This document shows positions 14,474-34,375 of a stretch of 34,833 nucleotides of DNA, piece after piece; position 1 is the first letter of the stretch; the number at the start of each line of letters is the position of its first letter. The stretch spans positions 1 to 34,833 of the forward strand of contig JAEUWD010000011.1 in assembly GCA_016786485.1 (NCBI GenBank), given 5' to 3'. The notes under the pieces were generated by a model. It was not told the DNA's origin, made no database searches, and saw nothing but the letters and a program-made list of their open reading frames with translations. The DNA is from Bacteriovoracaceae bacterium (lineage in GTDB: Bacteria; Bdellovibrionota; Bacteriovoracia; Bacteriovoracales; Bacteriovoracaceae). A program made the translations under genes and the position numbers.

Positions 14474-16363
14474 TTACGGCTTAACTTTGACCAGGAAAAG
14501 ATCGCAATGTTTCTCAAGCAATTTCGCCGCTTCTGGCTTAGCTTTTGCAATTTTTTGCAATTCTACGAAAGTGGCATTGTTTGAAACGATTTCAAAAGCA
14601 CGGCGGATAAAATCACGATACTGATTGTATTTAAATTTTTGCAAATCAACGTACATATCTGGCTTAACACCGTTGTTTTCTAAAAACTGCCCATCTTCCA
14701 TAACCAGCGCTGATTCAGTTAAGCGTGCTTCAAAATGTGAATGTGGCGCTTGTAAGTGCTTAACCACGTTACCACCAGCACCCATCGTGTTTTGACCTGC
14801 AAGAACCGCCAAACCGTTACGCTTTAATAAATAAGCGATAATGTCACCAGATGAAGCGTTCCCTTCACTTACCAGGGCCAGGATATTAAACTTGGTTTGA
14901 AGTTCATAATTTACGTTGATTCCGAATGGCATAAAACTTTCCACTGGGTACGACTTTGACGAAATCTTCGCGCCTTTCTCATAATCAATCGTAAGTTCTT
15001 TTAAAACATCATCAGCGATGACAGCTTCAGAACCACGGCCAATAGAAGTCGACATTGAGTGAAAGTTGTTTAACCAATTTTCATTAAGACCAAACTTCAT
15101 ATCGATGGTTTTAATTTTCTTATTTGAAAAAGCCTGGGCGACATTAGTTACTAAACTCAGTGAACCACCTGGGTTATCAAGTAAATCGAGGACGATATCT
15201 TTTACGCCATGTTTTTCGAATTTACGTAATGTTATCCACAATTGCTCAAGCACTTCTTCTTGACCTGCATCTGGACTAAAAGTCCCAATACGGATGTAAC
15301 CAATATTTTTAGTTTTTCCAGTGCTGGTTTTTACTGATTCAATATAGGCAGGATAAGTTTGCGCTTCTTCGATAAATAATACGTCTTCTGGGATTTTTCT
15401 TTCAAGTGCTAATGACTCACGGCCTTGAGCAGTGACGAAAGATAAGTGCTTCTTAATATGAGCACTGGTCCATCCGTCGACAGCGTCAAATTCAAAACGT
15501 GAGATTCTATCGGCAATGCTTTCAATTGAAGAATTGGCAGCAAAAGCCTTCTGCAAATTGATTGGTCGTTGGTTGGCTTGATAAAAAGTCATGGGAAATT
15601 TTGTGCCAGTGACTTTATCTGTTACGTGTAATACGAATGGGTTTTCCTTGAGCTTCGCAATTTCAAATTGAAAGTCCGCATAGTCACGTACAATCCATGG
15701 TAGTTCAACGGTTAAAATTTTGCCGTTTTCAGCTGAACTATAAGTAAGGCTCACATATTTTTCTTTTGGTAAGTTGCCTGAAAGTGAAGAGCGTTGAAAA
15801 AGGCTTTTCGCAAGAAAAGTATGGTTTGATTCTTCACGACCAAGGTTACGGTAAGGAACAAGTTCTTTGTTGATGTAATCTTTAACGGAAATTTTATTGA
15901 TACGAATAATTTGATCACCTGGTTGAAGTGGGAAATTTTCAATACCTTGAACTAAAGGGTGCAGTTCAGTTACCAAAATATTGTCCCCGTGCTTGATTCC
16001 AAGCATACCAAGAACTGCAATTTCAGATGCACCCTTTAGTGAAGAAGGTCTAAAATTAATCGAAAAGTGTGCGTCTCCGAAAGTCGCGACAAATTCATTT
16101 AATGCGGCGTAAAATTCGGAGTTATTTTTCGTTAACATGATTTTTTGAATAAATTTTTGTTCGAGGTCGGCGAGCTTGAAGCCAAATCTTTGTTCTTTGT
16201 ACTCAGTTAGAGCGTAATTTTCTCTAATTTGTGAGACTAAAACTTTAAAATCTGTCAGCTTCTGCTCCATCGTCAGTGGGCGATTTGGTACAGCTTCCTG
16301 ACATCCTGTAATTAGTATAGATAGAAACAATACGATACTTAAAACACTAAGAAATTTTTTCAC
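14474..16363 (-). CDS. S41-family peptidase-like lipoprotein
   Basis: 629 residues starting at a GTG with GAGGG 6-7 bases upstream. The N-terminus is a lipoprotein signal: basic MKKF, a hydrophobic core, lipobox ITGC with Cys21, so it is anchored on the periplasmic side or in the outer membrane. An N-terminal helical part is followed by a PDZ-like stretch (LQPGDQIIRINKISV, about residues 147-161). The C-terminal S41 core contains DIVLDLLDNPGGS, LVSEGNASSGDIIAYLL with the likely nucleophile Ser, and GQNTMGAGGN. The last motif has Ala where carboxy-terminal-processing proteases have the catalytic Lys, so it fits the tricorn/other S41 branch better than CtpA. Divergent from the exported Clp-like gene. 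Substrate unknown. Confidence 0.8.
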   Translation of the reverse strand: MKKFLSVLSIVLFLSILITGCQEAVPNRPLTMEQKLTDFKVLVSQIRENYALTEYKEQRFGFKLADLEQKFIQKIMLTKNNSEFYAALNEFVATFGDAHFSINFRPSSLKGASEIAVLGMLGIKHGDNILVTELHPLVQGIENFPLQPGDQIIRINKISVKDYINKELVPYRNLGREESNHTFLAKSLFQRSSLSGNLPKEKYVSLTYSSAENGKILTVELPWIVRDYADFQFEIAKLKENPFVLHVTDKVTGTKFPMTFYQANQRPINLQKAFAANSSIESIADRISRFEFDAVDGWTSAHIKKHLSFVTAQGRESLALERKIPEDVLFIEEAQTYPAYIESVKTSTGKTKNIGYIRIGTFSPDAGQEEVLEQLWITLRKFEKHGVKDIVLDLLDNPGGSLSLVTNVAQAFSNKKIKTIDMKFGLNENWLNNFHSMSTSIGRGSEAVIADDVLKELTIDYEKGAKISSKSYPVESFMPFGINVNYELQTKFNILALVSEGNASSGDIIAYLLKRNGLAVLAGQNTMGAGGNVVKHLQAPHSHFEARLTESALVMEDGQFLENNGVKPDMYVDLQKFKYNQYRDFIRRAFEIVSNNATFVELQKIAKAKPEAAKLLEKHCDLFLVKVKP

Positions 16364-16594
16364 TACAACCCTCTCATTTTTAAAAACTCTTTGAGTATCA
16401 TGAAAAATTTAGTGGCCTGTGAAAATAATTTAGGAAATTTTTACATACATGCACTTCGAAATGCTGCGAGAAATTAAAAATATCTTACATCTGAAGACAC
16501 ATGTTGTCAGATGCACGCTTGCAGTTTAAAAAACTATCGTCTTGCCTGAGAGACAAGATGAGTAGGAAGAGGGAGAACAAAAGCGGGGTTGCGT
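16364..16594. promoter_or_regulatory. Divergent intergenic region between S41 peptidase and Clp-like genes
   Basis: 231 bp that must hold the promoters of both divergent genes. It contains an imperfect palindrome (16488-16513), the boxes CGCTTGCAG (16516-16524) and GTCTTGC (16539-16545) that recur upstream of the PrkA-like gene, and a purine-rich leader (16547-16576). No convincing -35/-10 pair was found on either strand; a weak candidate for the peptidase gene lies on the - strand (TTCACA, 18 bases, GATACT). Confidence 0.4.
16488..16513. repeat. Imperfect palindrome, possible operator
   Basis: Arms CATCTGA (16488-16494) and TCAGATG (16507-16513) are perfect 7-bp inverted repeats around a 12-base centre that itself contains GACA/TGTC. 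It sits about 80 bp before the Clp-like start, with no T-run, so it looks more like a protein-binding site than a terminator. Confidence 0.4.
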
Positions 16595-19198
16595 GTGGCA
16601 AAATTGTATCTTTTTTTTACTCTGACAGTCTTTCTTTCTTTTGCTCACGCGCAAGATAGAAATTCCAATAACAAGAATCAAGTTAAGCAACCAGCGGGAT
16701 ATTCCTTTCAACTGATTGATGGTACGCGAGTTAAAGTTCGGATCGATCAAGATGAAATATATACGGTTTATTTAAATGATGATGAGTTATTGATTGGTGA
16801 TATTATTCGTGTTTCTCGTGGAAATGTTAAGGGTTCAGGAGAATTGGGAAGTGTCTTTTTTATAGAAACACGCTTTGATTACTATATAGTAAATAAAGAT
16901 GGGCGATTTACGATTTTAGAAAAGAAAGAGTTTTCAACCAAAACAAAACTCCCTCTTTATGACTATAAAATAGATCTTGATCAAATTAAAAAATACAATG
17001 TGCAAATCGGGGAAACGGTACATGAGCTTTGGCTCTACTCTCAATGGGATGTGGAGAGTAATGTAAATGAAATGTATTTGTACAATGCTGCGAATGAGGA
17101 AAGGCGTATGATATCAAACGAGAAAAAGCTTTATCCCAAAGAAATAAGCTTCATCGTTAAAGAAGGTATCAATGATGGTAAGAGAGAAAAAATTTACTAT
17201 CTTAAATTTGACAATCAAGATCTACCAATAAAAATGGATTTTTCTTCTTTTTTTAATGCGAAAACCACAACGACCAAAGTGGTTGATGGTGAAGGTGTAG
17301 TGATTAAAGATCTTAAAGATTATATTCAAAAAGAATTTGGCTTTATTCAAAATAAGTTCAAAATTTCAGATCAAGAGAAAAAGAAAATTCTAAGTTCACC
17401 AGAAGTGCAAGAGATGCGTGAGGCACTAGTGCTTTCGAGTGGAGTTATTTTGGGAGATGAGGGAATGGGCAAAACTTATCAGCTCAATCTCTTTATTAAA
17501 GGTGTTGTTGGTGGGTTGTTTCCTGAACTAAAAGACTATGAAGTTATCAATTTAAATCCAGCCAAACTTGAAAGTGGCGGTAAATATAAGGGCGTGATTG
17601 AGGCGAAAGTAAACGCGCTTATTGAGTACGCCAAGCAGAATAAATGTATTATCAAGCTAGATGAAATGCACCGCTTGCGTGGAACCGGAACACACTCAGG
17701 TAATAATAATGATACTTTTGAAAGTCTAAAAGATGTTATGGATGAAGATGGTCGCATCAAAATTGCTGGCGCCACTACATATTATAATTTTCAAAATAGT
17801 TTTGGTGGAGACCCAGCTTTGTCACGACGTTTTAATAAAATTAGAACCCGTGAGCTTGATCTCGAAAACGTAAAAAAAGCAGTGGAGAATTTTTTTCAAA
17901 AAGAAAATGCTAAAATTCCATCTGAGGAGATTTTATTAAAGGGTATTTATTTTTCCAATGAATACGATACAGTTGGAAATCAACCAGCCAAAGCCATCGA
18001 GTTATTCAAGAAAGCCTACGCTAAAACAATCGTTGCAGGTCTTGATTCCTCAAAGTTAAATTTAGATCTGTTACAGTCAACGGCGATCGAGATGTATGGT
18101 GTTGATGCCGCAGTCTTTGACTCGGCTTTGAGTCAAAAACGGCTAGAGATGTTACCAGACTATTTGGATAAACATGTTATTGGTATGGAGCCTCAAAAAG
18201 AGTTGATTGTTTCCCAGATTCGAAATGAATATGCTGGTCTAACCGATCCCAATAAACCATCTGTTGTTAATTTGTTCACTGGTGCTAGAGGTTCTGGTAA
18301 ATCAGAATTAGGTAAAGTTGTTTCTCGAGTTATGGGTTATAATTTTGAAGTCATTGATATGACTTCTTATGCCCATAGGCCAGCTCATGAATTTCAGAGA
18401 GAGCTTGGGGCAATTTTAAGAAAAAATCCATTTTCCTATGTTGTTTTGGAAGAGTTTGAAAAAGCCAGTGTGGAAGTTAAAAATACACTTTTACTTATTC
18501 TACAAGATGGTTCATTTACGGTTTTAGAAAAAGTAAATTCTTCTGGAAATGCCATTGAGTACCCTCGAAAAATTATGGCCAAGCATATGAAGATTCAGAT
18601 GAATTCAAACGCTGGCTCAAAAGAAATTATAGAAACTTTTCAACAGGTTTATTTAGAAAAACTTAAAGAAAAATTTGGAAATTTAAATCATACTGAGGCA
18701 TCTGAGCTTCAAGCTGGAAAAGATTTTTCAGATTTAATTAAAGAAGAAACATACCGACGGCTTGATCGCAATATGCTTGAAAATATGTTGGTTGAAAAGG
18801 GTTATACCTCTGAGCTACTTGATCGCTTAAGAATAAAGCCGGCATTACCACCGACTCGATTTGAATTTTTTCAGGCATTAAAGCTACATTCTGAGAACTT
18901 TATAAAAGAGCAAAAAGTCCTGTTAAGAGAAATTGTTTATAGTAATTTAGCTGATTTTTTAGAAAAGGCTGTTTTGGATCTTTACGTTCCTGGTGTGACA
19001 ACAAATCGATTTGCTTATTCTCTTAAGGATCAGTACTTAAAAGACGCACTTGCGGTATATACAGCTAAGCATGGTAAACAGGAGTCTATAACTATTGAAT
19101 TAGACTTGAGCAAAATTGAAAAATTAGATGCTCAAAAGTGCGATAGCCACTTAATTCCCAAAGCGGAACCCATCGGTTTTAAGTATGGTAATAATTAA
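16595..19198 (+). CDS. Exported Clp/Hsp100-like AAA+ ATPase with two AAA domains
   Basis: 867 residues from a GTG at 16595 (GGGG at 16585-16588); a TTG at 16589 is the alternative. The N-terminus MAKLYLFFTLTVFLSFAHA, ending AHA before Q, is a Sec signal peptide. Residues 20-280 are unrecognised and replace the usual Clp N-domain. Domain 1 has Walker A GDEGMGKT (287-294), a KYKG pore loop (Tyr331), Walker B KLDE (D356, E357), then AGATT and an LSRRF arginine-finger segment, all ClpA/ClpB-like. Domain 2 starts HVIGMEPQKELIV and has Walker A GARGSGKS (563-570) and Walker B VVLEEFEKA with Glu in place of Asp; the GYVG pore loop is missing. Two cysteines only, fitting export. A cytoplasmic ClpB is not a good description. 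Predicted role: ATP-driven unfolding outside the inner membrane. Confidence 0.82.
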   Translation: MAKLYLFFTLTVFLSFAHAQDRNSNNKNQVKQPAGYSFQLIDGTRVKVRIDQDEIYTVYLNDDELLIGDIIRVSRGNVKGSGELGSVFFIETRFDYYIVNKDGRFTILEKKEFSTKTKLPLYDYKIDLDQIKKYNVQIGETVHELWLYSQWDVESNVNEMYLYNAANEERRMISNEKKLYPKEISFIVKEGINDGKREKIYYLKFDNQDLPIKMDFSSFFNAKTTTTKVVDGEGVVIKDLKDYIQKEFGFIQNKFKISDQEKKKILSSPEVQEMREALVLSSGVILGDEGMGKTYQLNLFIKGVVGGLFPELKDYEVINLNPAKLESGGKYKGVIEAKVNALIEYAKQNKCIIKLDEMHRLRGTGTHSGNNNDTFESLKDVMDEDGRIKIAGATTYYNFQNSFGGDPALSRRFNKIRTRELDLENVKKAVENFFQKENAKIPSEEILLKGIYFSNEYDTVGNQPAKAIELFKKAYAKTIVAGLDSSKLNLDLLQSTAIEMYGVDAAVFDSALSQKRLEMLPDYLDKHVIGMEPQKELIVSQIRNEYAGLTDPNKPSVVNLFTGARGSGKSELGKVVSRVMGYNFEVIDMTSYAHRPAHEFQRELGAILRKNPFSYVVLEEFEKASVEVKNTLLLILQDGSFTVLEKVNSSGNAIEYPRKIMAKHMKIQMNSNAGSKEIIETFQQVYLEKLKEKFGNLNHTEASELQAGKDFSDLIKEETYRRLDRNMLENMLVEKGYTSELLDRLRIKPALPPTRFEFFQALKLHSENFIKEQKVLLREIVYSNLADFLEKAVLDLYVPGVTTNRFAYSLKDQYLKDALAVYTAKHGKQESITIELDLSKIEKLDAQKCDSHLIPKAEPIGFKYGNN

Positions 19199-20998: not shown

Positions 20999-23422
20999 AT
21001 GGAAAAATTTGTAAAATTGTTTTTGGTTCTCGTACTGTCGCTGAATTTCGCGATGGCAACGGAGTGTGATAATCACATGAAATTGCCGGTTGATGGAAGT
21101 ATGGCATTAAAATCAGTCACTGCTCTTACAACTGAGCACACTGTTTATGACATTCCTAAGTTGATGATGGATCATCCGATGAACGTCATGAATGCTTATC
21201 AAAGAGCTTGGGCTTGGATTAATTACAAAGCGAAATATGAAGTGAAGGATCCTTACTACGGATTAGGTAAAGTTGAAATTTATCCAGTTCTAAGTGAAGG
21301 TCTCGTTGAGACAGGCAATAAGTTAATCGTTGGCCACTACGAAACGCTAGCTGATATGGCAGGTTTCTTTAAGCGTGGTGCGATGGGCGACTACGGTGCA
21401 ACTAATAAGGCCCTTTCAGTTGTTGGTCCAGCTGGTACCGGTAAATCAGAATGGCCAAAAATTTTCACCAGACTTTCAAATTACTTAACTAATAACAATC
21501 CAACTTATTTTCTCTACACATATGAATTTGTGAATATTCATAATATCCCAAACATTCGTCCAAGAATTCGTCAGTTAATTAACGGCGATGAAATGGTTCC
21601 ATTTGAATCACCAATGAAAAATTCTCCATTGGTTCTATTATTTAAAGCGCCAGAGCTTCAGGCAAAAATTATTGCTGATGCATCGGCAGGTGCACAAAAG
21701 TTAACTGATGGTGCGAAACCAACCCCACGTTTATCACCAGATCCGCAATCAGAATTTATTATTAACGAACTTATTAAGTATTACGCAAAAACAGATCCGG
21801 CAAAATATGGAAAATTAACGATTGAAAGTTATATGGATATTCTCAACAAGCACGTGGTTATAAGACAGCGTGTTCGTGGCGAGTCAGACAAGTGGCCAAC
21901 GATTGGTGCACAAGGTGATGACCCGAACTATAACGATTTATACTTCCAATCAAACCCAATGATTGAATCTCTTTGGGGCGCTAAAGACCCATTTTCAAAA
22001 CACTACAATGGTCAAGTCCTAAGTTCCGAAGGCGGCGTCCTTTTCATGGACGAGTTTTTCAGAAATATTCCACCTCTACGCGATACATTCCTAGAACTTA
22101 TGGAAGGTAAAGTTGTTCAGCATGGTTCTTCACTAGATGTTAAAGTTGATAACGTTATCCTTGTTGCAAGTAACGATGAATCAATCAATGCTTCTTCTGC
22201 TGAATTAAGCACGCTCGCTCAACAAGATCGTCTCTTACAAAAAAATATGCGTCTAACTGATAGACCGCAAGAAGTTTCAAAAATTCTCGTTCTTTTAAAA
22301 GGTGCAGAAAACTTTGAAATGAAAAGCTTAAATCCTGCGAGTGGCACAAAAGCTTCATACGAAAAAGGTGATATTCATAAATTATATCCTCTACCAACAG
22401 AAGGTAGATTAATGACTCACGAAGGTCGTTATGCACTAAGAATTAAAAATGGTGAAGGACAGGAACCAATCTTTATCGCTCCACACGTTTTTGAATTTGT
22501 TTCGATGACAATTGCGGCTTCTCGTATGATTGTAGACCCTCAAGTTCTTGTTGACGCGAACTTCCCGTCACGAGTTATGAATGAAAGAGTTTTTAATGAT
22601 CCAATCACTCGTTTAAAGTTCTATAACTATGAAATCGAAGTTCAAGATGCTTATAGAGCTGAACTTAAGGCACTCCATAGTCGTTTGAAAGAAGGTTCAA
22701 CTGGTATTTCAAACCGTTCAGCTGATAAGCTTTTAACAACATTAATTGAAAAAGCTGAGTCATCTGGAAAGAACACCATTACTTACGGTCTCGTTAAAGA
22801 TGTTTTCAAAAAACTTCTAGACGAGCATGTCCTTGGTGCTAAAACAAATGAAGAAAGCTTAAAGTGGTTAAGTCTTCTTGAGAACGTAGCTTTCAAAATG
22901 ATTATTCCACGTTTACAAGCTGACGTTATGACTGCACTTAATGGTGGTAACTCTGATGTAAGAGCTATCTATGATGAAATCGTTGAAGAACTTTTAAACT
23001 TAAGCAGAAATCCTGATGCTATCGAGTATATTTCGCAGACAAGTGGTACACCAAAAACAGTTGACCACATTCGCCTAGAAGAAGTGAAGCGTATGTACTT
23101 AATTGAAAATAGTCGTCAGTTAGAATCAAATGATTTAACGACCTTCATGTCGATGAATAAAGCAAGATCAGATGAAGTTTATCGTCCTCTATTTAATGCA
23201 GTAAGTTTGTATTTATCTAAAGACTTAATGAACAGCGCTCGTTTAGCAAGCATTTATCAATACATTACAAATGGTAAAGGCGATTCTGAAACAGCTGCGA
23301 TTGCATCACGTTTCCAAAAAATTATGGAAGAACAGTTAGGCTATAATGCGACTTCATTAGTTGAAGCATTGAGTTTTGTAAGACAGTACGAAGCTAAAAC
23401 TAACAATATTGGAAGAAGATAA
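20999..23422 (+). CDS. Exported PrkA/YeaG-like AAA+ protein
   Basis: 807 residues from ATG 20999, with a GGGGG tract at 20986-20990; an upstream in-frame TTG at 20975 would spoil the signal peptide. MEKFVKLFLVLVLSLNFAMA is a Sec signal, cut before TECDNH. Walker A GPAGTGKS is at 143-150 and Walker B VLFMDE (D351, E352) follows GGV. PrkA-type features are the PMKNSPLVLL segment, then after Walker B an LMEGKVV stretch and VILVASNDES (the family has ILAHSNES), and a C-terminal block with IPRLQADV, RAIYDEIVEELL and a late SQTSGTPK segment resembling the PrkA C-terminal domain. E. coli YeaG has 644 residues. The only cysteine lies just after the signal peptide. PrkA members are described as Ser/Thr kinases or AAA proteases acting with YeaH and YcgB; here the partner is two genes downstream. 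Kinase activity is not shown by the sequence. Confidence 0.78.
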   Translation: MEKFVKLFLVLVLSLNFAMATECDNHMKLPVDGSMALKSVTALTTEHTVYDIPKLMMDHPMNVMNAYQRAWAWINYKAKYEVKDPYYGLGKVEIYPVLSEGLVETGNKLIVGHYETLADMAGFFKRGAMGDYGATNKALSVVGPAGTGKSEWPKIFTRLSNYLTNNNPTYFLYTYEFVNIHNIPNIRPRIRQLINGDEMVPFESPMKNSPLVLLFKAPELQAKIIADASAGAQKLTDGAKPTPRLSPDPQSEFIINELIKYYAKTDPAKYGKLTIESYMDILNKHVVIRQRVRGESDKWPTIGAQGDDPNYNDLYFQSNPMIESLWGAKDPFSKHYNGQVLSSEGGVLFMDEFFRNIPPLRDTFLELMEGKVVQHGSSLDVKVDNVILVASNDESINASSAELSTLAQQDRLLQKNMRLTDRPQEVSKILVLLKGAENFEMKSLNPASGTKASYEKGDIHKLYPLPTEGRLMTHEGRYALRIKNGEGQEPIFIAPHVFEFVSMTIAASRMIVDPQVLVDANFPSRVMNERVFNDPITRLKFYNYEIEVQDAYRAELKALHSRLKEGSTGISNRSADKLLTTLIEKAESSGKNTITYGLVKDVFKKLLDEHVLGAKTNEESLKWLSLLENVAFKMIIPRLQADVMTALNGGNSDVRAIYDEIVEELLNLSRNPDAIEYISQTSGTPKTVDHIRLEEVKRMYLIENSRQLESNDLTTFMSMNKARSDEVYRPLFNAVSLYLSKDLMNSARLASIYQYITNGKGDSETAAIASRFQKIMEEQLGYNATSLVEALSFVRQYEAKTNNIGRR

Positions 23423-23441
23423 AAAAAGCCTTAGTACGCCA

Positions 23442-23465
23442 GTCTTTTCTTGAGAGAGAGGGAGA
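23442..23465 (+). repeat. Leader motif shared with the Clp-like gene
   Basis: GTCTTTTCTTGAGAGA (23442-23457) and GAGGGAGA (23458-23465) lie in the gap before the 2113-residue gene. Closely similar strings, GTCTTGCCTGAGAGA (16539-16553) and GAGGGAGA (16569-16576), precede the Clp-like start. They are in the mRNA leader of one and possibly of both, so a shared RNA- or DNA-level signal is conceivable. Low-complexity purine similarity is the alternative. Confidence 0.35.
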
Positions 23466-23486
23466 GAATGACGTTTGAGGTGAACT

Positions 23487-26400
23487 TTGAAAGTTTTATT
23501 TGTTCTGATTCTGACATTATTCTCGTTAGGTACGGCCGTTGCTAATACCGAACTCGTTGTTAACTATCAAGGTGTTAATCCATACTTGTTAGTTTTCAAA
23601 GATGATGAAGGTGCAAGTAAGCGTGCTCCGGGAATTTATGCATCAATTGATAAAGACTGGAAACTTATTTTCCCGGGAGAGTTGTTCCGGGATCGCGAGT
23701 TTCATGGAATCTTTACTCAATTAACTGATATTTCAAATCAAACTCAAAATTATGAATCATTGGCCATTATCAATGGCAAAATTATTCTTTTTAACATTAA
23801 TTCAAATTTCGAAGACGAAAATTCATTTATCGATCTTTCAGGTAAAAATGGTCAGCTTTCGGATCTGGCTTCAGGTCAGCAAATCGAAGTTTTACCCATT
23901 ACCAATAGTCGCGATGTAACGTTACATAAAATTAATAATTCGACGAAGAATCAATACACATTACTTTTCTCGGTTAAGCAAAATTTGCCAGGCCTAGGAA
24001 CAGGTCTCACATTCTTTTTAAATTTAAGTATAACGAGTAAAGGACCGTTAGCGACTTGGCCCACGGTTCCACCCATGGTTATTGATTACAAATATAAACC
24101 ATTGTCTGAAATTACGAGTGCTGTAATGCCATCAAATGCAGGTGTTCGCCTTTACTCAGAAAATTTGCTCCGCCGAATTGTAAATCCGGTTTCAGGTTTA
24201 AAAACAAATAATCCACACATCACTGAGTGGGTAGGGAAAGTAAAAAGCGCGCTTCAGCATGAAGTAAAATCTTTTTATGCGAATATTCTACCTGTTTTTG
24301 ATGTAACCGAAGGAAAGTTAATTTTTCCAGAGTTAAAAGAACCGATCGAAGGTCAAATTGCGGTTCAATACTATGACCCTCAAGGCATCGATCATAAATT
24401 TGTTCGTCGTACGAATGTTGAGATGAGTTTGCCTGGTGTTGTGAATAAATCAACCAATGCCAAGTTTCTTTATGAGCCACAAGTCGATGGTTCAGCCATT
24501 TTAGTTATTAATAATGATCTGGTTGTTATCAAAGAAAATATGATGGTTTTAGAAAAAGCAGTTCCCCAGCTAACTGATTTTTCAGCACATGCAATCGCGA
24601 TCGACAAAGAAAAATTTTATTATTTAATTTCTAAAAAAGGTTTGCCGGGAAATGAAAAAAATCAAACATGGATATTCGAAGTTCAACTTAATAAAAATGG
24701 TGAACCTGCACATTTAATTGGTAAAACACTTCTCAATAACGAGTATTACAGCAAAAATGAACTTCAAAAAAGATTGATGCCGATAACTCTTGTGCAGCCT
24801 GATGGTGCAGAAAAGCCAACCATCTTATTTGATGATAATTCTAAATTGAGTAAAGATGGAAATTCACTCGTAAGAAATCAACAAATTCTACCGTTGTTAA
24901 ACGTTTCAGAAATCACACCAGGATCAAAGTTAAAAAGAACTTATATTGAAGCTCTCGATATTATCAATTTAAATCCTAAACTTGAATATCGTAAGTATGC
25001 AGAATTTGATTCGAAAAATCCAAGTGGTTTGTATTTGTTAGCGAAGGAGTATGATCAAAGTGTACCGCTCATTAAACGCTCATCATTATCATCTGCTTCA
25101 GGGGAATTGCTTCAAGTTATTACAGGTGAAGGGACAGAGGAGAGTTTACTAGCAACTAACGATAAAATTGCTTATATTCAAACCAAAAAAGATCGTTTCG
25201 TTTTTAAAATGGAAGCTTACGCTGTAGATCCAGATTTTAGTAATGGTGAAAATGGATTCAAATTAGTTATTTTCAGTAAAAACATAGCTTCTCCAATTAT
25301 GGATTTTTCACCTAATGGCTTAGGTACAGCTAACTACTCGCCTGAGTTGACGGAAGTAAAGATTCCTGTGGCTTTTGATCGTGTCAAAGGTGTTAAAATT
25401 ATTAACGGTCAAGGCGATAAATCAAATCATGTCAGTGTGTTACTTCAGATTGAAGCAGATCCAAATGCTGAAACTTACAAAGAATCAAGTGCTATGGTTC
25501 GTAACTTTGTTTTAGGTTATAAAGCAGAAACGTCACGCCTAACGGTTGTCCCTGAAAAAGATGTAAACATTATCAGTGAAGACGCTTTGTCAGTCGATCT
25601 AAGAGCTCGATTGGTTTACGACACTGTTTCTGGTGATATTTATTGGGTTGAAAAACCACATCTTGATCGTAAAGATAAAGCCTTCTCAGTTGCTTCATTA
25701 ACAACAAGTAGTCGTGCCTATCCGAACAAAGTCAGTTCAAAAACAATCAATTTAGACTTCGAAAATTCATATGAAACACTAGCGAGACTTTCTGACTCTG
25801 ATTGGAGTTGGGATAAAGTTGATTCGTCTTGGAAAGCCGCTATGTCGACCATGGACACAAACCTTGATCAATTAGTTGGTCAGAGAATGGATGAAGCTTT
25901 TTTAAAGCGTCATGACAATGAGTTTAAAGGTTTGATGAATGAACTTAACGCTATTGCTGACACACATAAGTCCCCAAAGCGTACGATTTTTGTGGTTAGT
26001 AGTAATGATGATAAAACAAAATTAAAAAACTATATTCGTACAAAATATAACCAAGAAAGAAAAGGTAAAGACATTCCTTGGTCATACTATGAGCACAATC
26101 TGCATGTATATGTCCCTCAATCAGGCCTCGCTCAGTGGGATGATATCGAAGAAAATTTCTTGGCCATTAATAACAATACTCGTAAAGCTGTTATTTACGG
26201 TGATATCGGCGAAATTTTAAAATGTGGAAAGGATGGTCGATTAACTGATTTAACCGTCGATAACAAGACGCCATTTCGCCTCGAGAAAAATGGACAAGAA
26301 ATCCCACCACACATGTTTTACCTCTTATCAACAGAAGGTGAAGAATTAAGTTTTAATGAATTTGCGCAAAAAAAGAATTTGTATAAGAAAAGTGCTGTTT

Positions 26401-29400
26401 ATGTTGCGACTTACGATGAAATGGAAAAACTTAAGAAAAGTATGAAGCCTGAGGAAGAGCTTGGACTTTTCCAGACATACGATGTTAACTATCAATATTT
26501 TCAATCGAATTGGATGGTGAAAAAACCAGGTCCCATCGCAAAACAAATCCAAAATAAAGAAGGTAAGTTAGAAACGGTTATTGAGCAACCTAAGCCAGTG
26601 GCAGCTCGACCTCTTGAAAAAGAGATCTTTGCCTCGCTCGCAAACTTGTTAACCGATGTGAGTAATCCAAAACTTGCGCCATCAACAAAAGTTATTATTG
26701 TTGATCATAACCTGAAAGGTATTATTTCTAACACCATATTAACATGGTGGCTAACCGGTTCTAAAGATCCTGAGTTTGCCCAGTTCGCTTGGAATCACAG
26801 AAATGAAAATTTAAATATCTACCGATTAATGGATATAGAATCAGCAACGACAGGTCTCAACACCATTGAGCAAAATTTTATGGCGATGAGAAATGCCATG
26901 AATGAAGGAAAGCTTCCGGTTTTAATTGCAGATGTTGCGGTTATTAAAGAGCTTGGTCGAGTCGAGCACAATATTTTAGGTGATGGTAGATCTCATCAAA
27001 AAGTGAACGAAAAATCATCTTTCATGCTGCAAGATTTTGTTCAGCAAGATGAAGATGCTGGAGATTCAATTTTAAAAGAGATTGCTGAAGAAGAGGAAGA
27101 TGCTCTTGATTATCGTGAAACTGCCAAGGAAAAGAAAGGTAAGCGTCCCCATGCTTTATGGTGGTTATTATCTGAAGGTCAGCAAGTAAAAACTCAGGAC
27201 ATGAAGTCTTTTAAAGCGACAATGCCTAAAGTATTAATTGCGACAGCAGAAGAATGGAAATCGCTTGAATCAGATGTGAATTTCGAAGCCCGATTCGGTG
27301 CTTTAGAAAAACTTGAGTTTATGGAGCTCGAAGCTCCAAGCAAAGAGTCGATCAAGAAAGTAGTTTTGGAATATTTTAATTCATTAGAATTTAATTCTTT
27401 AAATTACCGCTTTGAGTATGATTCGAATATTACTCAAGCCGAAGCAAAAGAAGTCATGGCAGGTTATCTGGCCAATAAAATTATTTCTTTATCAACTCAA
27501 CACAATAAAAATCTGGTCCTTCAATTTTCACGAGCATTAGATGTGCTTTCGAAAATGGTTATTGAGGATATTGCTGTTCGAAATGCGGGTGTTATCGACC
27601 AAGTTGTTATTAATAAATTATTTACACGAGTTTTTAATATTCCATTAGATTTAAAAACACTTCCAGAAAATGATCCGCTAAAAGTTATCAAGGCAAACAA
27701 CGGTGAAGATTTCATTGTAAAACTTCAAGAACCTGGAAAAATGAAGAAAGGTTATAACGGTCCGGTTGAATTAAAAGAAATGTTTGCTCAAGGTTTAACT
27801 AAGCAACTTTCTTCTGGTGTTGACGGTGTGAATCTTCCAAACGCATTTATTATTATCGGTGAAAGCGGTACTGGTAAAACGTTTCTCGTTGATAAAACAG
27901 TTACCGATGTTTTAGATCTTAAGGAATATAACTATGCCAAACCTAAAGAAAAAGGTGCTCAGTTCTTTAGATTGGCCATGAATAATGTCATCCCTGATCC
28001 AGACGATTTAAAAGTGGAAGACATCAGAATCGATCCATACACTAATACTAAGATTCCAGTTTCCATTGCACTAAAGCACTTGGATTATGCACTTACGACA
28101 CCGGAAGGCTTCAGAATGCATGTCTTAATCGATGACATACATAAAGCAGACCCAAAAGTTATTCCGAAAATTTTAAGTTTTATTAAGTCACTCCAAGAAG
28201 CACCAGAAGGTATTTATCAAACGGAAGTCGATGGAAATTTAGCTGAAACACCAGTAAGAAATCTTACCCTCTATGTAACCCTGAACCCACCGGATGACAA
28301 AGCCATTATTCAAAAATATGCAGCGGATGGAGACACCATTGGTTTAATTGTGGGGGCGATTGCTCAGTCAGGCGCTACGATCGATAGATCTGTTATTAAG
28401 CGTTTCCCTACTATTATCAATTTACAAAAATTTCCTTCTGAAGCAAAAGCCCCTGCACTTATGACAAACTTGAGAAAAGTGACACAGGAACAATTTAATA
28501 ATCAAGGGATGCTAATCTTAGCTCAGCAATCAACTCCTGCTAGTATCGTTGAAGAATTCCCAGATGCCGATGCTCGTGAATTTATTCCACAAGCTACATC
28601 TGCTTTAATTGAAGTGGCACAGGAAGCGGAGTTTGCTGATGATTCGGCGATAAGAATCCTAATTTCAAAAAATAAATTAAAGAAAGCTGGCAATGAAGCA
28701 AGTTCACTTTTTGCACGATATGCTTTAGCTTTAAATGCTAAATGGGGAGCTTCAGGAACTGAACGCAATAATATTTTGAATTTTGTAGGTAGTAATGTTC
28801 TTTCACTTCCTGTTAGTAAGGAACAGTCACTTTCAAAAATGCTTTTCTTGTCAATGATTGTCGATAACTTCAGAATGAATATTTTTGAAGGGATTGTTGA
28901 TTCATTACCGAAGAGTCCAATTTTTGTTGATAATAAAAGAGCTCGTGAATTTATCCTTGCTCCATTCTTGCTTGCAACAGTTGATCATGCAAATGACTTT
29001 AGCGAATTTCCGTTAACCGCACTTCATCTTGAATTATCTAAGCTGGGTGCTGATACAATGGTTCAGCGTCAAAACTTAGAAAAAGTCATTACGTCGTTAT
29101 CAGCAAAAGGTGCAGAGAAAAAATTATTCCCAATGATTTTCGCGGATGAAGTCATTTCTGACGATATGTCAGCGCTTGAAAACTTTATTGGCACTTCAAC
29201 GGCAGAGAACGTTGAACGTACTCGTGCCAATGTAATGACAGATTCAGTTGATAGAATTTATAAAATTTTAAAACAATTATTTCAGTCTTATTTAAGAGTT
29301 TCTGATGTGAATGAATTGCCAAACAGTGTTGATTGGTTGAGAGCGGTTCCACTTGTTGATCCAACAAAAGCGTTATCAGATTTAAGTGCGAAATTGATCG

Positions 29401-29828
29401 AAGAATACACCACCTTTTCAATGGAATTATTTGTGGATGAACTTTATGAAGTTAAAAACTTCCAAGAGTTTAAAACAATCAACCAATACGATAAGGCCCG
29501 TCTATTTTTATCAGTCATTGAAAAAGCGATGACGCGATTACCATGGGAAGAAACACTTCCATTCGTGATTGATGGAATTCAGGCTGCAGCTAAAGATATC
29601 GATTTGGGTCAAGCGGTTGGCGTACAGCAATTCTTGTTTAATAGTCAATTTAGTCCATTCCGCTCACCGGGTAATGCGACTCTAATGCAAATGATTGCGA
29701 GTTCACATTTATTTAAGAATTACAAAAAAGAAGTGCCTGCGATTAAGAGCACATTTGAAAGTAATTGTGACAAGTTTTTCTATAATAAATATACAAAAGT
29801 TTCTAAATCTGCTGAAGGAAAAGAATAA
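23487..29828 (+). CDS. Giant exported AAA+ protein (2113 residues) with degenerate duplicated units
   Basis: Starts at a TTG with GAGGTGA 5 bases upstream. MKVLFVLILTLFSLGTAVA is a Sec signal peptide cut before NTE. Residues about 20-800 are beta-rich and unrecognised. Residues about 831-1010 and 1066-1282 look like two copies of one unit: strand, NF(L/M)A-type helix, then H-hydrophobic LL(S)-EG and a (V/I)ATYDE / IATAEE strand, with a Clp-like FEARF segment in the second; neither has a Walker A. One intact AAA+ module follows: Walker A GESGTGKT (1458-1465), Walker B VLIDD (D1549, D1550), sensor-like YVTLNPP and IKRFPTI. The last 430 residues are helical. Cysteines: only C913 and C2094. It overlaps the next start by one base, so the two are coupled. 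Overall family unknown. Confidence 0.75.
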   Translation: MKVLFVLILTLFSLGTAVANTELVVNYQGVNPYLLVFKDDEGASKRAPGIYASIDKDWKLIFPGELFRDREFHGIFTQLTDISNQTQNYESLAIINGKIILFNINSNFEDENSFIDLSGKNGQLSDLASGQQIEVLPITNSRDVTLHKINNSTKNQYTLLFSVKQNLPGLGTGLTFFLNLSITSKGPLATWPTVPPMVIDYKYKPLSEITSAVMPSNAGVRLYSENLLRRIVNPVSGLKTNNPHITEWVGKVKSALQHEVKSFYANILPVFDVTEGKLIFPELKEPIEGQIAVQYYDPQGIDHKFVRRTNVEMSLPGVVNKSTNAKFLYEPQVDGSAILVINNDLVVIKENMMVLEKAVPQLTDFSAHAIAIDKEKFYYLISKKGLPGNEKNQTWIFEVQLNKNGEPAHLIGKTLLNNEYYSKNELQKRLMPITLVQPDGAEKPTILFDDNSKLSKDGNSLVRNQQILPLLNVSEITPGSKLKRTYIEALDIINLNPKLEYRKYAEFDSKNPSGLYLLAKEYDQSVPLIKRSSLSSASGELLQVITGEGTEESLLATNDKIAYIQTKKDRFVFKMEAYAVDPDFSNGENGFKLVIFSKNIASPIMDFSPNGLGTANYSPELTEVKIPVAFDRVKGVKIINGQGDKSNHVSVLLQIEADPNAETYKESSAMVRNFVLGYKAETSRLTVVPEKDVNIISEDALSVDLRARLVYDTVSGDIYWVEKPHLDRKDKAFSVASLTTSSRAYPNKVSSKTINLDFENSYETLARLSDSDWSWDKVDSSWKAAMSTMDTNLDQLVGQRMDEAFLKRHDNEFKGLMNELNAIADTHKSPKRTIFVVSSNDDKTKLKNYIRTKYNQERKGKDIPWSYYEHNLHVYVPQSGLAQWDDIEENFLAINNNTRKAVIYGDIGEILKCGKDGRLTDLTVDNKTPFRLEKNGQEIPPHMFYLLSTEGEELSFNEFAQKKNLYKKSAVYVATYDEMEKLKKSMKPEEELGLFQTYDVNYQYFQSNWMVKKPGPIAKQIQNKEGKLETVIEQPKPVAARPLEKEIFASLANLLTDVSNPKLAPSTKVIIVDHNLKGIISNTILTWWLTGSKDPEFAQFAWNHRNENLNIYRLMDIESATTGLNTIEQNFMAMRNAMNEGKLPVLIADVAVIKELGRVEHNILGDGRSHQKVNEKSSFMLQDFVQQDEDAGDSILKEIAEEEEDALDYRETAKEKKGKRPHALWWLLSEGQQVKTQDMKSFKATMPKVLIATAEEWKSLESDVNFEARFGALEKLEFMELEAPSKESIKKVVLEYFNSLEFNSLNYRFEYDSNITQAEAKEVMAGYLANKIISLSTQHNKNLVLQFSRALDVLSKMVIEDIAVRNAGVIDQVVINKLFTRVFNIPLDLKTLPENDPLKVIKANNGEDFIVKLQEPGKMKKGYNGPVELKEMFAQGLTKQLSSGVDGVNLPNAFIIIGESGTGKTFLVDKTVTDVLDLKEYNYAKPKEKGAQFFRLAMNNVIPDPDDLKVEDIRIDPYTNTKIPVSIALKHLDYALTTPEGFRMHVLIDDIHKADPKVIPKILSFIKSLQEAPEGIYQTEVDGNLAETPVRNLTLYVTLNPPDDKAIIQKYAADGDTIGLIVGAIAQSGATIDRSVIKRFPTIINLQKFPSEAKAPALMTNLRKVTQEQFNNQGMLILAQQSTPASIVEEFPDADAREFIPQATSALIEVAQEAEFADDSAIRILISKNKLKKAGNEASSLFARYALALNAKWGASGTERNNILNFVGSNVLSLPVSKEQSLSKMLFLSMIVDNFRMNIFEGIVDSLPKSPIFVDNKRAREFILAPFLLATVDHANDFSEFPLTALHLELSKLGADTMVQRQNLEKVITSLSAKGAEKKLFPMIFADEVISDDMSALENFIGTSTAENVERTRANVMTDSVDRIYKILKQLFQSYLRVSDVNELPNSVDWLRAVPLVDPTKALSDLSAKLIEEYTTFSMELFVDELYEVKNFQEFKTINQYDKARLFLSVIEKAMTRLPWEETLPFVIDGIQAAAKDIDLGQAVGVQQFLFNSQFSPFRSPGNATLMQMIASSHLFKNYKKEVPAIKSTFESNCDKFFYNKYTKVSKSAEGKE

Positions 29829-32800
29829 TGAAAAAAAGTATCTTAACACTCGTATTATTTTCTAACTTTGCCTCAGTCATGGGTTTTGCTTGTGATAATT
29901 ATTTGCACGCCAACGATCCTGACCATCCGAAAATTAATTTTAATTCAAGTGGTAGAATTGAAGACGTCAAAGATAAGTATTTAGAACTTATTCGTCGTTA
30001 TACTGACGAAGGTGGTATTTTAGATAAGTTAGGAATTGCCAATCCGTACCATGAATATTCATTCGTTTCATCACGCGACATTGCAACGCTAGCTTCTTTA
30101 GGTCGTCACCCGATTCCTCACGCACATGATGGAAATATTGTTTTAACTCAATTATTTGCTTCTCTTGGGGTTATGGAATTCGTTACGCCAGCTTCTTTTG
30201 GTGGTGCTTGTCCGGGAAGTCGTTCCTTTTACAATGATACAACTTCATGGGCAGAGCAGTTTTCAATTCTTTTTCACGTTTTTGGTCATACTGATTTTTC
30301 TGAAAACTCATTATTTTCAAAAATTCGCGCGCTTGATGGCGAAGCTGATTCGATTACGAAATCGCTAGAACTCGCTCAGAAAATGAACGAATGGATGAAA
30401 GAGTATGGTTCAGATGAAGTATCACTTTTTTATCAATATTTATTAAGTATCAATTTTGATCAAGATGTTTTGAAAGGTTCATTTCAACATCCAACAGAAT
30501 TTAAGTTTGATAAGAATAATCGCAAGCCTACTCATCCTGTAGCTCCGACTAATAACTCGCTTCAGTTCTTAGTTGAAAATATGCCAGCAGAAACACCTGA
30601 TTGGAAAATTGAAATGATTCGACTTTTCGAACAAGTGAATCGTCAGACTGTTTATGTTATCCAAACAAAAATCATGAATGAAGGTTGGGCGACTCTGATG
30701 ATGGAGATTTTAGCTTATCATGGTGGTGAAAATAGTCATCATGAGATCTTCAGTTATTCAAAATTACTTTCTGGTGTTGCTGTTCCAGATCTAAGCAATC
30801 CTTATTTCTTGGGTCGCGAAGCTTGGCGTTCAGTCCGAAGAAGATTCAATAATCGTCCAGATATCAAAACGCTAGATGTTTTTGAACAAGATAAAAGATT
30901 TATCGCACATGCTCACCAAGTTATGCGTGAGTATATGGACGATTTCAATTTCTTAAAATTCGCCCTTGATGAACAATGGGTTTATCAAAATAAACTCTAC
31001 CTCAAGCGCCCAGCACAACACCATGAGTGGAATCATAATTTACCACCATCAAAAAAGCAGGAAGATGACTATCAGTGGGTTGTAACATCTGTTGATCCAA
31101 AAGAAGTTGTTAAAAAAGTGGTGGAAACTTCAGGCGCGGACAAGAGATTCTCATTTCCTGACGTAAGATTGAAAGATGTTTACGCTCTTGGAAATAATTC
31201 TGTTCTTTATGAACACATGCCTTATGAAGGTATTCCGCTAGTTTTAGAACAAGCGGTTATGAAAACTTTTGTTTTAACTAAAATTCATAATAAACAAGTT
31301 AGTCTTCTTACCATTATGAAAGATGAGAGATTGCCGGGTCATGATGGGCCAGAAGATGATGATATGTTTTTCATGCCAAAAATCCCAATGCCTCCAGTGA
31401 AATTGGCTCCGGTAAAAATTCGTATTGATGTTACGCCAGATGGTAAAGTGAAGGTTTACCGTTTAGCTGACGTCGAAATTGTCGAAGATACAAGACAAGT
31501 TCATTTGTTTGATGAATTAGCAACAGAGCAACAGAAAAAGCACTATTTCGATATGAAAGATGATGAAGAGTTGGAAGCTGATGAAGTGGTTGATGTTTTA
31601 GATGAAAATTTATCGAAACACTTACAAGATGTAGTTGAGTTTTATAAAGAAGATCAGCGCATGAGTATGTCTCCTGCACTTTTCGAAAAAGAATTCCCTG
31701 AAATCAGACAAGTTATTCAAGGCATTGTTGATACCGCGATTAAAGGTCCTATTTCAAGTATCTCTGGCGCTCCGACTGCTCCAGATGCAGTTCTTGAATA
31801 CACGCGCTTAGTAACTAAGCGTATGGCAAAAACCCTTGAAGGTTTAAAAAACGGGACAGTGAAGGGTAAGGTTACTGGCCAGGGTATTCAAGTTCGTATC
31901 ATGCCTATTATTCCAGAGTGGAGACATGATGGAAAAGCAATTGAAGAAATGGTGAATGGTGCTGTGCCGTCTCCAATTGATTCGCTCACATCTACTTTTG
32001 CGCTAAGTTCAAACGACCCACGTTTAGCGGCGGTACCATTTCGCTTTGCTTATAACGGTGGGATGCCAGAGTACTTTGATCGTTTTGTGGATGCTGATGG
32101 TAAGATTGAAGAAGTTATCAATCAAAAAAGATCAAAAGAAATTTTAAAAGTGGTAAGTGATTTCAAATACAGTAAAGAGTTGAGTCCACGTTTCAATGAA
32201 ATTGAAAAATATCTACTTGATGTTGAAGCATATTCGAATAATGTGATCGCACTTTCTGAAAAAGAAACTGCCATTACTGGCACAGAAGCCACGACCTTGA
32301 TGGGGAGAGATACTTCCATTGGATCAGGTTCCGGTAAACCTGGAGACAGGAACTGGGGACCTAATCCAAATGGTGGTCAAGGTGAGGGAGAAGGCGATGA
32401 ACCAGGTGGTAAAAAGCCAGGTAAGAATCCAGTACCCCCAGGTTACGTTAACATTCCACTTGATCAATGGGGTCAATACCTAAATGTTAAGTTACCAAAT
32501 CTTCGAAATAAAAAAGGTCCAAGCAAAATGACCAAGACCAAACTTCGTGGTGTGGTCAATAAGCCAAATGGACAGCAAGTTCTGAATCCAATGATGAAGG
32601 ACGCGATGGTTGTTGGAAAACTTAAGCTTGAAGAAATGGGTCGACCAGATTTGGCCGATGATCCAGTTGAGTGTATCTATGAAGGCTTAAAGCATATGAC
32701 GAACGATAATATTTACGTTCGTGCACGTAAAATCGATAAAAAGCCTGATATGCGTGCAGTTGTTTTCCTTCCAATGGATATGTCGGGATCAATGTGGGGC

Positions 32801-33301
32801 TGGAAGCAAGATGCAGCCAAAGAATTTATGTTTAATTTAAGAGCAGCATTGAAAGCTAAATATAAAGACATCGAGTTTGTTTATGTGGCTTTCGATACTC
32901 AAGCTCACATCTTTAAAGAAAAAGATGTAGATAAATTCTTTAAAGTTCGCTTAGGCGGTGGAACGGATTACAGCATGGGGTATGAAACTTGTGCGAAAGA
33001 ACTTAAAGCGAATTATCCAGAATCTCAATACGATCGTTATATTTTTGGTATTGGTGACTCGGAAGATTCGGCATCTCAAATTGATAAAATTAAACGTATT
33101 GTAAAAGATACTGAATATTCTGGTTACGTTCACCTTGGAGTAAGGGGTGGGTTTGGCGAAGATTTCCGTGCCGCCTTTGAAGGTTTATCCAAGAGCGATG
33201 AATTTTTTGGATATGCTGAGATCTCAACTGAATTTGGTAAGAACAGAAGTTTAGCGATTAAAGCGATCTACGATTTATTAAAGCAAAGCGAGAAGAAATA
33301 A
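29828..33301 (+). CDS. Exported SpoVR-DUF444 (YcgB-YeaH) fusion with VWA/MIDAS domain
   Basis: 1157 residues; ATG overlaps the previous stop (TAATG), with AAGGA just upstream. MKKSILTLVLFSNFASVMGFA is a Sec signal peptide before CDNY. The SpoVR part (about 30-480) has FHVFGHTDF (H150, H154), matching the family's AHA-x-FGHN, then MNEGWAT (283-289) and NPYFLGREAW, both hallmarks. Residues about 490-830 are unassigned. A Gly/Pro-rich linker (about 834-872) leads into DUF444: VKLPNLRNK, RAVVFLPMDMSGSM with the MIDAS residues D984, S986, S988, then VYVAFDTQAHIF and GGGTDY with T1046. In E. coli these are separate cytoplasmic proteins, YcgB and YeaH, linked with YeaG; here they are one secreted chain beside a YeaG-like AAA+. 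The VWA domain would be the expected partner of the AAA+ ATPases. Confidence 0.88.
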   Translation: MKKSILTLVLFSNFASVMGFACDNYLHANDPDHPKINFNSSGRIEDVKDKYLELIRRYTDEGGILDKLGIANPYHEYSFVSSRDIATLASLGRHPIPHAHDGNIVLTQLFASLGVMEFVTPASFGGACPGSRSFYNDTTSWAEQFSILFHVFGHTDFSENSLFSKIRALDGEADSITKSLELAQKMNEWMKEYGSDEVSLFYQYLLSINFDQDVLKGSFQHPTEFKFDKNNRKPTHPVAPTNNSLQFLVENMPAETPDWKIEMIRLFEQVNRQTVYVIQTKIMNEGWATLMMEILAYHGGENSHHEIFSYSKLLSGVAVPDLSNPYFLGREAWRSVRRRFNNRPDIKTLDVFEQDKRFIAHAHQVMREYMDDFNFLKFALDEQWVYQNKLYLKRPAQHHEWNHNLPPSKKQEDDYQWVVTSVDPKEVVKKVVETSGADKRFSFPDVRLKDVYALGNNSVLYEHMPYEGIPLVLEQAVMKTFVLTKIHNKQVSLLTIMKDERLPGHDGPEDDDMFFMPKIPMPPVKLAPVKIRIDVTPDGKVKVYRLADVEIVEDTRQVHLFDELATEQQKKHYFDMKDDEELEADEVVDVLDENLSKHLQDVVEFYKEDQRMSMSPALFEKEFPEIRQVIQGIVDTAIKGPISSISGAPTAPDAVLEYTRLVTKRMAKTLEGLKNGTVKGKVTGQGIQVRIMPIIPEWRHDGKAIEEMVNGAVPSPIDSLTSTFALSSNDPRLAAVPFRFAYNGGMPEYFDRFVDADGKIEEVINQKRSKEILKVVSDFKYSKELSPRFNEIEKYLLDVEAYSNNVIALSEKETAITGTEATTLMGRDTSIGSGSGKPGDRNWGPNPNGGQGEGEGDEPGGKKPGKNPVPPGYVNIPLDQWGQYLNVKLPNLRNKKGPSKMTKTKLRGVVNKPNGQQVLNPMMKDAMVVGKLKLEEMGRPDLADDPVECIYEGLKHMTNDNIYVRARKIDKKPDMRAVVFLPMDMSGSMWGWKQDAAKEFMFNLRAALKAKYKDIEFVYVAFDTQAHIFKEKDVDKFFKVRLGGGTDYSMGYETCAKELKANYPESQYDRYIFGIGDSEDSASQIDKIKRIVKDTEYSGYVHLGVRGGFGEDFRAAFEGLSKSDEFFGYAEISTEFGKNRSLAIKAIYDLLKQSEKK

Positions 33302-33649: not shown

Positions 33650-34375
33650 TTGAAACATAAGTACTTATTTTTATTAATTTTATTTGTGGGATGTTTAAAG
33701 CCGAGTGAAAACAACTCACCAATAAAGGCTTCGATAAAAATGCCATTGGTAATAAAAAGACTCGAAGAATTTAAAAAAAATGAAACGCAACCGATTGTGA
33801 AAGCTTCAGCTTACGACAAATTAAGTAGTGATGATAAATACAATTATGAAATTCTCTTTGTACAAGAAATCGCGTTAGTTACGAGAAGAATTGAACCAAG
33901 TAATGAAGAAATTCATAATTGGCTGAATGCTCTTTTACAAGGAGCGACTCGAGAAGGTGTTTATCGAGGTCTCGTTCACGATCAGTATTACTATCGTATC
34001 GAAGGCGAACCAAGTGCGATTACTAATGAATCACTTCAATTTACAAAAAATTTTATGAGTCAATTTTTGTTTCAGCAATTTAATGATGAGTTACTGAAAG
34101 ATGTTAATATTTTTACGCTTAAACGAATTGTCTGCGAAAAAACATTGGATGTGATTGATGCTTTGCGGGCCAATCCCGAAGAGCTTTATGCATGGTACGC
34201 CCTTTTTTCTGAGCATGTGGCCAAAGAAAATGCAGCAGCTTTAAATAATAAAATTCGTAAAATTGCCGACGCTAATGTTCACCTGGAATGGGCACGCTCA
34301 GTGCCAGAGCAACACTTAAAAACAGAAGTTCTGACCAAACTTCATATGATTTTTAATAATTTAAATAAAATCTAA
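33650..34375 (+). CDS. Putative lipoprotein of unknown function
   Basis: 241 residues from a TTG at 33650; AAAGGA at 33637-33643 supports this start. The N-terminus MKHKYLFLLILFVGC is a lipoprotein-type signal with Cys15; the -3 residue is Phe, slightly off the usual lipobox. The mature part is mostly helical and polar, with YNYEILFVQEIALVTRR and LHMIFNNLNKI, and no domain is recognised. It is divergent from the small coiled-coil gene (97 bp between starts) and overlaps the epmA stop by 4 bp. Nothing ties it to the exported AAA+ operon except proximity. Confidence 0.7.
   Translation: MKHKYLFLLILFVGCLKPSENNSPIKASIKMPLVIKRLEEFKKNETQPIVKASAYDKLSSDDKYNYEILFVQEIALVTRRIEPSNEEIHNWLNALLQGATREGVYRGLVHDQYYYRIEGEPSAITNESLQFTKNFMSQFLFQQFNDELLKDVNIFTLKRIVCEKTLDVIDALRANPEELYAWYALFSEHVAKENAAALNNKIRKIADANVHLEWARSVPEQHLKTEVLTKLHMIFNNLNKI

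Follow-up and report, generated by a model that had tools for sequence, protein, structure and literature searches.

Results

Three adjacent genes encode a putative exported AAA+ machine

The window analysed here, the whole 34,833 nt stretch of contig JAEUWD010000011.1 from a Bacteriovoracaceae bacterium (Bdellovibrionota), carries three adjacent genes on its forward strand, which encode a PrkA-like AAA+ protein (P0001), a giant AAA+ protein (P0002) and a fusion of SpoVR with DUF444, a vWA domain (P0003). All three proteins are predicted to be exported via Sec-type signals, and we consider it likely that they constitute one AAA+ remodelling machine that is Sec-secreted, assembled and working outside the inner membrane. 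A sequence-only reading of this DNA had described three adjacent genes with such signals, Walker, SpoVR and metal ion-dependent adhesion site (MIDAS) motifs and a one-base overlap, and all of these were found again in place:

20999..23422, + strand: PrkA-like AAA+ protein P0001, 807 aa (ATG start, GGGGG upstream)
20999-21058, + strand: P0001 signal, a hydrophobic N-terminal segment
21065-21067, + strand: P0001 single Cys, C23
21425-21448, + strand: P0001 Walker A, GPAGTGKS
22037-22054, + strand: P0001 Walker B, VLFMDE
P0001 aa 537-792: PrkA C-terminal domain (Pfam match to PF06798)
23487..29828, + strand: giant AAA+ protein P0002, 2113 aa (TTG start, GAGGTG upstream)
P0002 aa 1-19: signal
P0002 about aa 20-740: beta-propeller-like half
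P0002 about aa 1050-1290: probable degenerate Hsp100 first AAA module (D1)
27858-27881 and 28119-28136, + strand: P0002 Walker A, GESGTGKT, and Walker B, HVLIDD, of an intact Hsp100 second AAA module (D2)
29766-29768, + strand: P0002 conserved C2094, in the C-terminal helical part
29828..33301, + strand: SpoVR-DUF444 (vWA) fusion P0003, 1157 aa (ATG start)
29828-29890, + strand: P0003 signal
29891-29893, + strand: P0003 conserved C22
30275-30289, + strand: P0003 HVFGH (SpoVR)
30677-30691, + strand: P0003 NEGWA (SpoVR)
32777-32794, + strand: P0003 MIDAS, DMSGSM

The giant and fusion genes overlap in the sequence TAATG, and all three open reading frames (ORFs) have good ribosome sites at their starts. 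The same genome contains, on contig C23, a separate canonical prkA-yhbH-spoVR operon whose products lack signals.

Signals, charges and cysteines point to export

Signals were judged by a plain rule, a hydrophobic 9-mer near a start, with the canonical homologues as controls. The signal is MEKFVKLFLVLVLSLNFAMA followed by TECDN in P0001, MKVLFVLILTLFSLGTAVA followed by NTELV in P0002 and MKKSILTLVLFSNFASVMGFA followed by CDNYL in P0003. Across the carriers, 64 of 70 chains start with a signal-like segment (PrkA-like 18/20, giant 23/24, fusion 23/26), against 3 of 248 controls (PrkA 2/64, YhbH 1/103, SpoVR 0/81); most of the six chains that failed the rule show a signal by eye (with a proline-interrupted core, masked bases or an extended leader). 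The association of gene order and signals noticed in the window is thus beyond chance, since it recurs across the phylum and the canonical homologues lack signals by the same rule. The ratios of K/R to D/E residues were 42:12, 38:7 and 45:8 before the hydrophobic core and 33:35, 31:42 and 37:71 after it. This charge, positive before the core and neutral to negative after it, would place the bulk of the chains outside (N-in/C-out). Further membrane segments are almost absent from the exported chains, and no other hydrophobic 19-mer in P0001, P0002 or P0003 matched the strength of the N-terminal one.

The exported chains contain 2.15, 1.74 and 3.34 Cys per 1,000 aa, compared with 7.66, 7.43 and 8.07 in canonical PrkA, YhbH and SpoVR. 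Each family alignment has one dominant conserved Cys (PrkA-like 19/22, giant 17/19, fusion 18/20), located near the mature N-terminus in the PrkA-like proteins and fusions and near the C-terminus in the giants. The aligned sequences devoid of it are mainly truncated or split chains, and many PrkA-like chains have no Cys besides this one. In genome G281, which has no giant, the PrkA-like protein and the fusion each retain an N-terminal Cys. The obvious guess is that the conserved cysteines may form inter-chain disulfides. A lipoprotein reading of the N-terminal Cys was rejected: the fusion Cys directly follows the signal only here and in G021 and lies further downstream in other genomes, so that a lipobox does not account for this Cys in general. 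Export of the module is predicted because the signals are conserved across carriers and cysteines have been lost two- to four-fold.

Domain composition of the three proteins

The assignment of these proteins to the PrkA, DUF444 and SpoVR families, made earlier from the letters alone, was borne out by Pfam. P0001 is, by its domains and its Walker A and sensor residues, a member of the PrkA family. It matched the PrkA C-terminal domain (PF06798) with an E-value of 1.3e-7 (32 bits for a Pfam cut-off of 25). The AAA_PrkA model did not match P0001 on its own in the Pfam scan; it matched 13 of 19 homologues, and PrkA matched 11 of 19. The best match of the PrkA-like profile in the PDB was 9xip, a solved PrkA described as 'serine protein kinase' (E 9e-35). 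In the family alignment, the Walker A Lys (YeaG K116), the Walker B Glu and the sensor-1 Asn are each present in 22 of 22 sequences. The exported proteins differ from canonical PrkA in having the usual hhhhDE Walker B (D 19/22, E 22/22) instead of EF[IV]E, and in not keeping YeaG R232, whose column, tentatively matched, is mostly hydrophobic in the exported chains. The YeaG K426 kinase residue is itself kept in only 1 of 42 canonical PrkA proteins, and B. anthracis PrkA has negligible kinase activity (PMC13001217). Weak matches to bpMoxR (18-20 bits for a cut-off of 27) were found only in the PrkA-like proteins of G278 and G281; in the Pfam scan this model did not match P0001.

By family tests, P0003 is a SpoVR protein (HVxGH, NEG) joined to a DUF444 protein (vWA MIDAS), with E-values of 1.9e-18 for PF04293 (SpoVR) and 5.5e-24 for PF04285 (DUF444). 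Both domains were found in 17 of 17 fusion homologues, and residues D984, S988, G1044 and D1077 of the DUF444/MIDAS part and H150, G153, H154, E285 and G286 of the SpoVR part are invariant. Over half of the fusions also have a CxxC pair at aa 128-131, ahead of HVxGH (first Cys 12/20, second 11/20), of which P0003 has only the first Cys.

Pfam gave only weak AAA matches for P0002. Profile and fold comparisons nevertheless identify its C-terminal half as Hsp100/Clp-like. The profile of this half matched E. coli ClpB (2.9e-10) and ClpA (1.5e-9) in hhalign, the negative controls YeaG, an ABC ATPase and SecA all being at 0.009 or above, and in the PDB its matches were led by ClpC (E 7e-8). AlphaFold2 models of the giant had a predicted local distance difference test score (pLDDT) of 78.5 for the C-terminal half and of 74.5. 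With the first of these, the best 50 Foldseek matches were all ClpC, ClpA, ClpB or Hsp104, in alignments of about 700 columns spanning both AAA modules. The D2 module carries the Clp-like motifs HKA and RN..L..TLNP, and its Walker A K, Walker B DD and sensor N are present in at least 90% of giants. The D1 module is probably a degenerate Hsp100 module, as judged from the model; alone it gave a weak sequence signal (ClpA E 0.0066) and no Walker A was seen in it. The N-terminal half is beta-rich and in Foldseek mostly resembled beta-propellers (DDB1, LRP2, Utp, DPP8/9) with low TM (template modelling) scores, hence our use of 'propeller-like' only.

The sequence-only reading had taken the three genes for an exported version of the PrkA/YeaG, DUF444/YeaH and SpoVR/YcgB system. 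This description holds in that the set is distinct from the canonical one of the same genome; it does not hold for the giant, which is an extra partner with no counterpart among PrkA, YeaH and YcgB and is missing from G278 and G281.

Distribution in Bdellovibrionota and relation to canonical homologues

The giant profile detected the module in 27 of 369 Bdellovibrionota genomes sampled, in 24 of 182 genera, and the PrkA profile added G278, G281, G283 and G348, giving 31 carriers out of 369. In the family of the present genome, the giant profile found the module in 2 of 129 genomes. Most carriers are draft genomes, and contig ends truncate many loci. Where the contigs are long enough to tell, the genes run prk, giant, fusion on one strand, with the exception of G021, where prk is inverted. 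G278 and G281, of one genus, lack the giant and have SpoVR-DUF444 directly after prk; in G278 it is split into two ORFs. Some genomes have two module copies or two tandem SpoVR-DUF444 fusions (locus L156 in G307, L158/L159 in G347).

When the exported PrkA profile was run against the phylum, exported proteins scored at E-values of 1e-80 or below and canonical ones at 6e-43 or weaker. This clean gap indicates a separate family and not a recent copy. Canonical YhbH is encoded elsewhere in the genomes of G021, G044 and G058. In the tree of the fusions, members of family f11 fall into separate well-supported groups and carriers of genus g118 are split over two; such a tree, which does not follow the families, is compatible with gene transfer inside the phylum or with duplicates of ancient origin.

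Searches outside the phylum covered samples with few candidates scored per genome, phylum names being those of the centre records. The giant profile found nothing in 195 Myxococcota, 299 Pseudomonadota, 246 Planctomycetota and 8 mixed genomes, nor did the PrkA profile at 1e-60 in 237 Acidobacteriota. At least one true relative, JAUIIL010000007.1 (Bacteriovoracia bacterium), is among the matches listed for the GTDB r220 contigs.

A second putative exported Hsp100 and other neighbours

Three further genes of the window were considered:

14474..16363, - strand: S41 peptidase, CPAF-like, with a lipoprotein-type signal (NF033424, E 1.5e-41, below cut-off)
16589..19198, + strand: second exported Hsp100, P0004, 869 aa, divergent ClpA-like, with two intact Walker A motifs
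33650..34375, + strand: predicted lipoprotein, 241 aa, with an LFVGC lipobox

P0004, whose signal MRVAKLYLFFTLTVFLSFAHA is followed by QDRN, matched TIGR02639 with an E-value of 8e-45, far under the equivalog cut-off. Its gene lies 1.8 kb upstream of the module, from which it is separated by what we take, from the translation, to be a rimO-like gene. In the 25 genomes searched, relatives with a signal were found in G281 (L221:9468-12266) and G242 (L222:1211-3763), both module carriers, each with a single, C-terminal Cys at the same place as in P0004; the remaining closest matches that were inspected are conventional, signal-less proteins of the ClpA/ClpB type. By kind and nearness P0004 is a candidate associate of the module, and together with these relatives it lends support to the notion that a wider range of AAA+ activities exists beyond the inner membrane. 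The S41 peptidase gene, oriented divergently from that of P0004, was rejected as its partner, as no such gene is found beside the relatives in G242 and G281.

No conserved neighbours were found around the module across the carrier loci compared, and a conserved fourth module gene was rejected. The lipoprotein gene stands next to the module only here and in G021 and is probably shared context, not part of the core module. Three unannotated genes of about 264-296, 1041-1095 and 454-507 aa lie 3' of the giant in G307 (L155) and G304 (L154); Pfam gave no informative family match for them.

Discussion

Comparison with known systems

Homologous domains encoded by adjacent genes make the canonical PrkA/YeaG-YhbH/YeaH-SpoVR/YcgB operon of E. 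coli, Bacillus and Bdellovibrio (bd0228-bd0231) the counterpart of the exported set at the level of the module (PMC5430801, PMC2375023, PMC4664914). The exported set differs from it in its signals, the fusion of SpoVR with DUF444, the added Hsp100-like giant and its few cysteines. A cytoplasmic location is the rule for PrkA proteins but no element of their definition by sequence, and the signal-like N-termini predict another place for the exported ones. The fusion and the operon suggest that SpoVR and DUF444 are one unit acting with PrkA. The giant resembles Hsp100/Clp proteins (ClpA, ClpB, ClpC, Hsp104) in what are, by fold, probably two AAA modules, in its D2 motifs and in its profile, and departs from them in the probably degenerate D1, the propeller-like N-terminal half, the C-terminal helices with their Cys, and the signal.

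As a module, the set also recalls the MoxR-vWA ternary systems (VMAP, iSTAND, FtsH and beta-propeller types), which combine an AAA+ protein, a vWA protein and a large third component; the FtsH type has a tandem-AAA protein with an inactive first AAA, and beta-propellers occur in these systems (PMC7159879). Here, however, a PrkA-like protein provides the AAA+ part, DUF444 with SpoVR the vWA part and an Hsp100-like protein the third component, and all are predicted to be exported. PADLOC gave no match to MoxR-vWA or other anti-phage defence systems for the three proteins and Pfam found no effector domain in them; with PADLOC empty, a defence-system reading was rejected.

A proposed mechanism and its alternatives

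In AAA+/vWA pairs such as NorQ/NorD (PMC9976466) and MoxR-vWA systems (PMC7159879), the vWA/MIDAS protein is considered to be the client adaptor of the AAA+ ring. We propose that the exported set follows the same principle and has an Hsp100-like unfoldase as an additional, third component. The PrkA-like AAA+ protein and the DUF444 vWA domain would work as a pair, like MoxR AAA+ and vWA proteins: the vWA/MIDAS domain with the SpoVR part would bind a substrate or client, and the PrkA ring would drive a conformational change. Clients bound by the propeller-like half of the giant would be threaded or unfolded by its D2 ring. Inter-chain disulfides between the conserved cysteines, one per protein, would hold the machine together in an oxidising compartment. 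Its ATP would have to be drawn from a source foreign to the usual periplasm, such as the contents of other cells or some other supply.

Several points weigh against this proposal. By the prevailing view there is no ATP in the Gram-negative periplasm, so that a periplasmic AAA+ machine has no known fuel. A TLC-family ATP/ADP carrier was found in 1 of 31 module genomes and in 1 of 31 comparison genomes, and ATP import was rejected as a companion of the module on account of this equal rarity. Nothing found identifies a substrate: the suggestion in the sequence-only reading that the module works on peptidoglycan or inside prey found no pointer to a target, and presence is patchy (2/129 in the family, 27-31/369 in the phylum). 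The disulfide idea rests on conservation, and with three cysteines one is left without a partner. Confidence in the models of the giant is modest, the root mean square deviation of its Clp match is high, and D1 is backed by structure comparison and hardly by sequence.

The ATP problem would be solved if the proteins, after Sec export, crossed the outer membrane, for instance through a type II secretion system or in vesicles, and acted where ATP is plentiful, such as prey or host cytoplasm or a lysate. The phylum includes predators and the chains are soluble, with no membrane segments. Against this, the module occurs in no more than 2 of the 129 genomes sampled from its family and in none of at least 20 sampled genomes of genus g71, family f6 (probably Bdellovibrio), a patchiness and absence that argue against a core predation factor, and neither secretion-system genes nor conserved neighbours adjoin it; we regard such delivery as possible but unlikely. 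An exported set independent of nucleotides, with its AAA+ folds serving as ring-forming scaffolds or binding another ligand, would agree with the degenerate D1 and with the want of a known ATP source. It seems improbable to us, as the Walker A Lys, Walker B acidic residues and sensor Asn persist in all or at least 90% of sequences at a mean column identity of 28-31%, while D1 shows what lost constraint looks like.

If the signals were misread and the proteins were cytoplasmic, or were anchored with most of the chain inside, they would have ATP at hand and would be where the described relatives are. Given the signals in 64 of 70 chains and 3 of 248 controls, the N-in/C-out charges and the cysteine loss, we attach very little credence to this possibility. 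The great divergence from the canonical set and the patchy distribution could also mark a functionless, decaying duplicate of the canonical operon, an idea made barely tenable by the long intact ORFs in many genera, the conserved catalytic residues and Cys, and the separation of exported (1e-80 or below) from canonical (6e-43 or weaker) PrkA proteins. A single exported machine working outside the inner membrane is the reading that we prefer. The fuller proposition, that Bdellovibrionota run ATP-hydrolysing, disulfide-tied PrkA-vWA/SpoVR and Hsp100 machines there on an unexpected source of ATP, appears to us evenly poised between true and false.

Implications

To our knowledge, no AAA+ protein of bacteria has been described whose ATPase domain lies in the periplasm, where want of ATP is believed to preclude its function. 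The earlier remark that no described periplasmic form of this system was known agrees with the open-licence literature searched, in which no exported bacterial PrkA, SpoVR or Hsp100 was found. AAA+ proteins do act outside the cytosol in eukaryotes, such as torsins in the lumen of the endoplasmic reticulum (PMC4320221) and the Hsp100 relative CLPB/Skd3 in the mitochondrial intermembrane space (PMC9934407), but these compartments have ATP whereas the bacterial envelope is held to be without it. Either ATP would be available outside the cytoplasm in carriers of the module, or the proteins would be delivered to a place where ATP exists. In both cases, the exported set may offer a new handle on the widespread PrkA/DUF444/SpoVR system.

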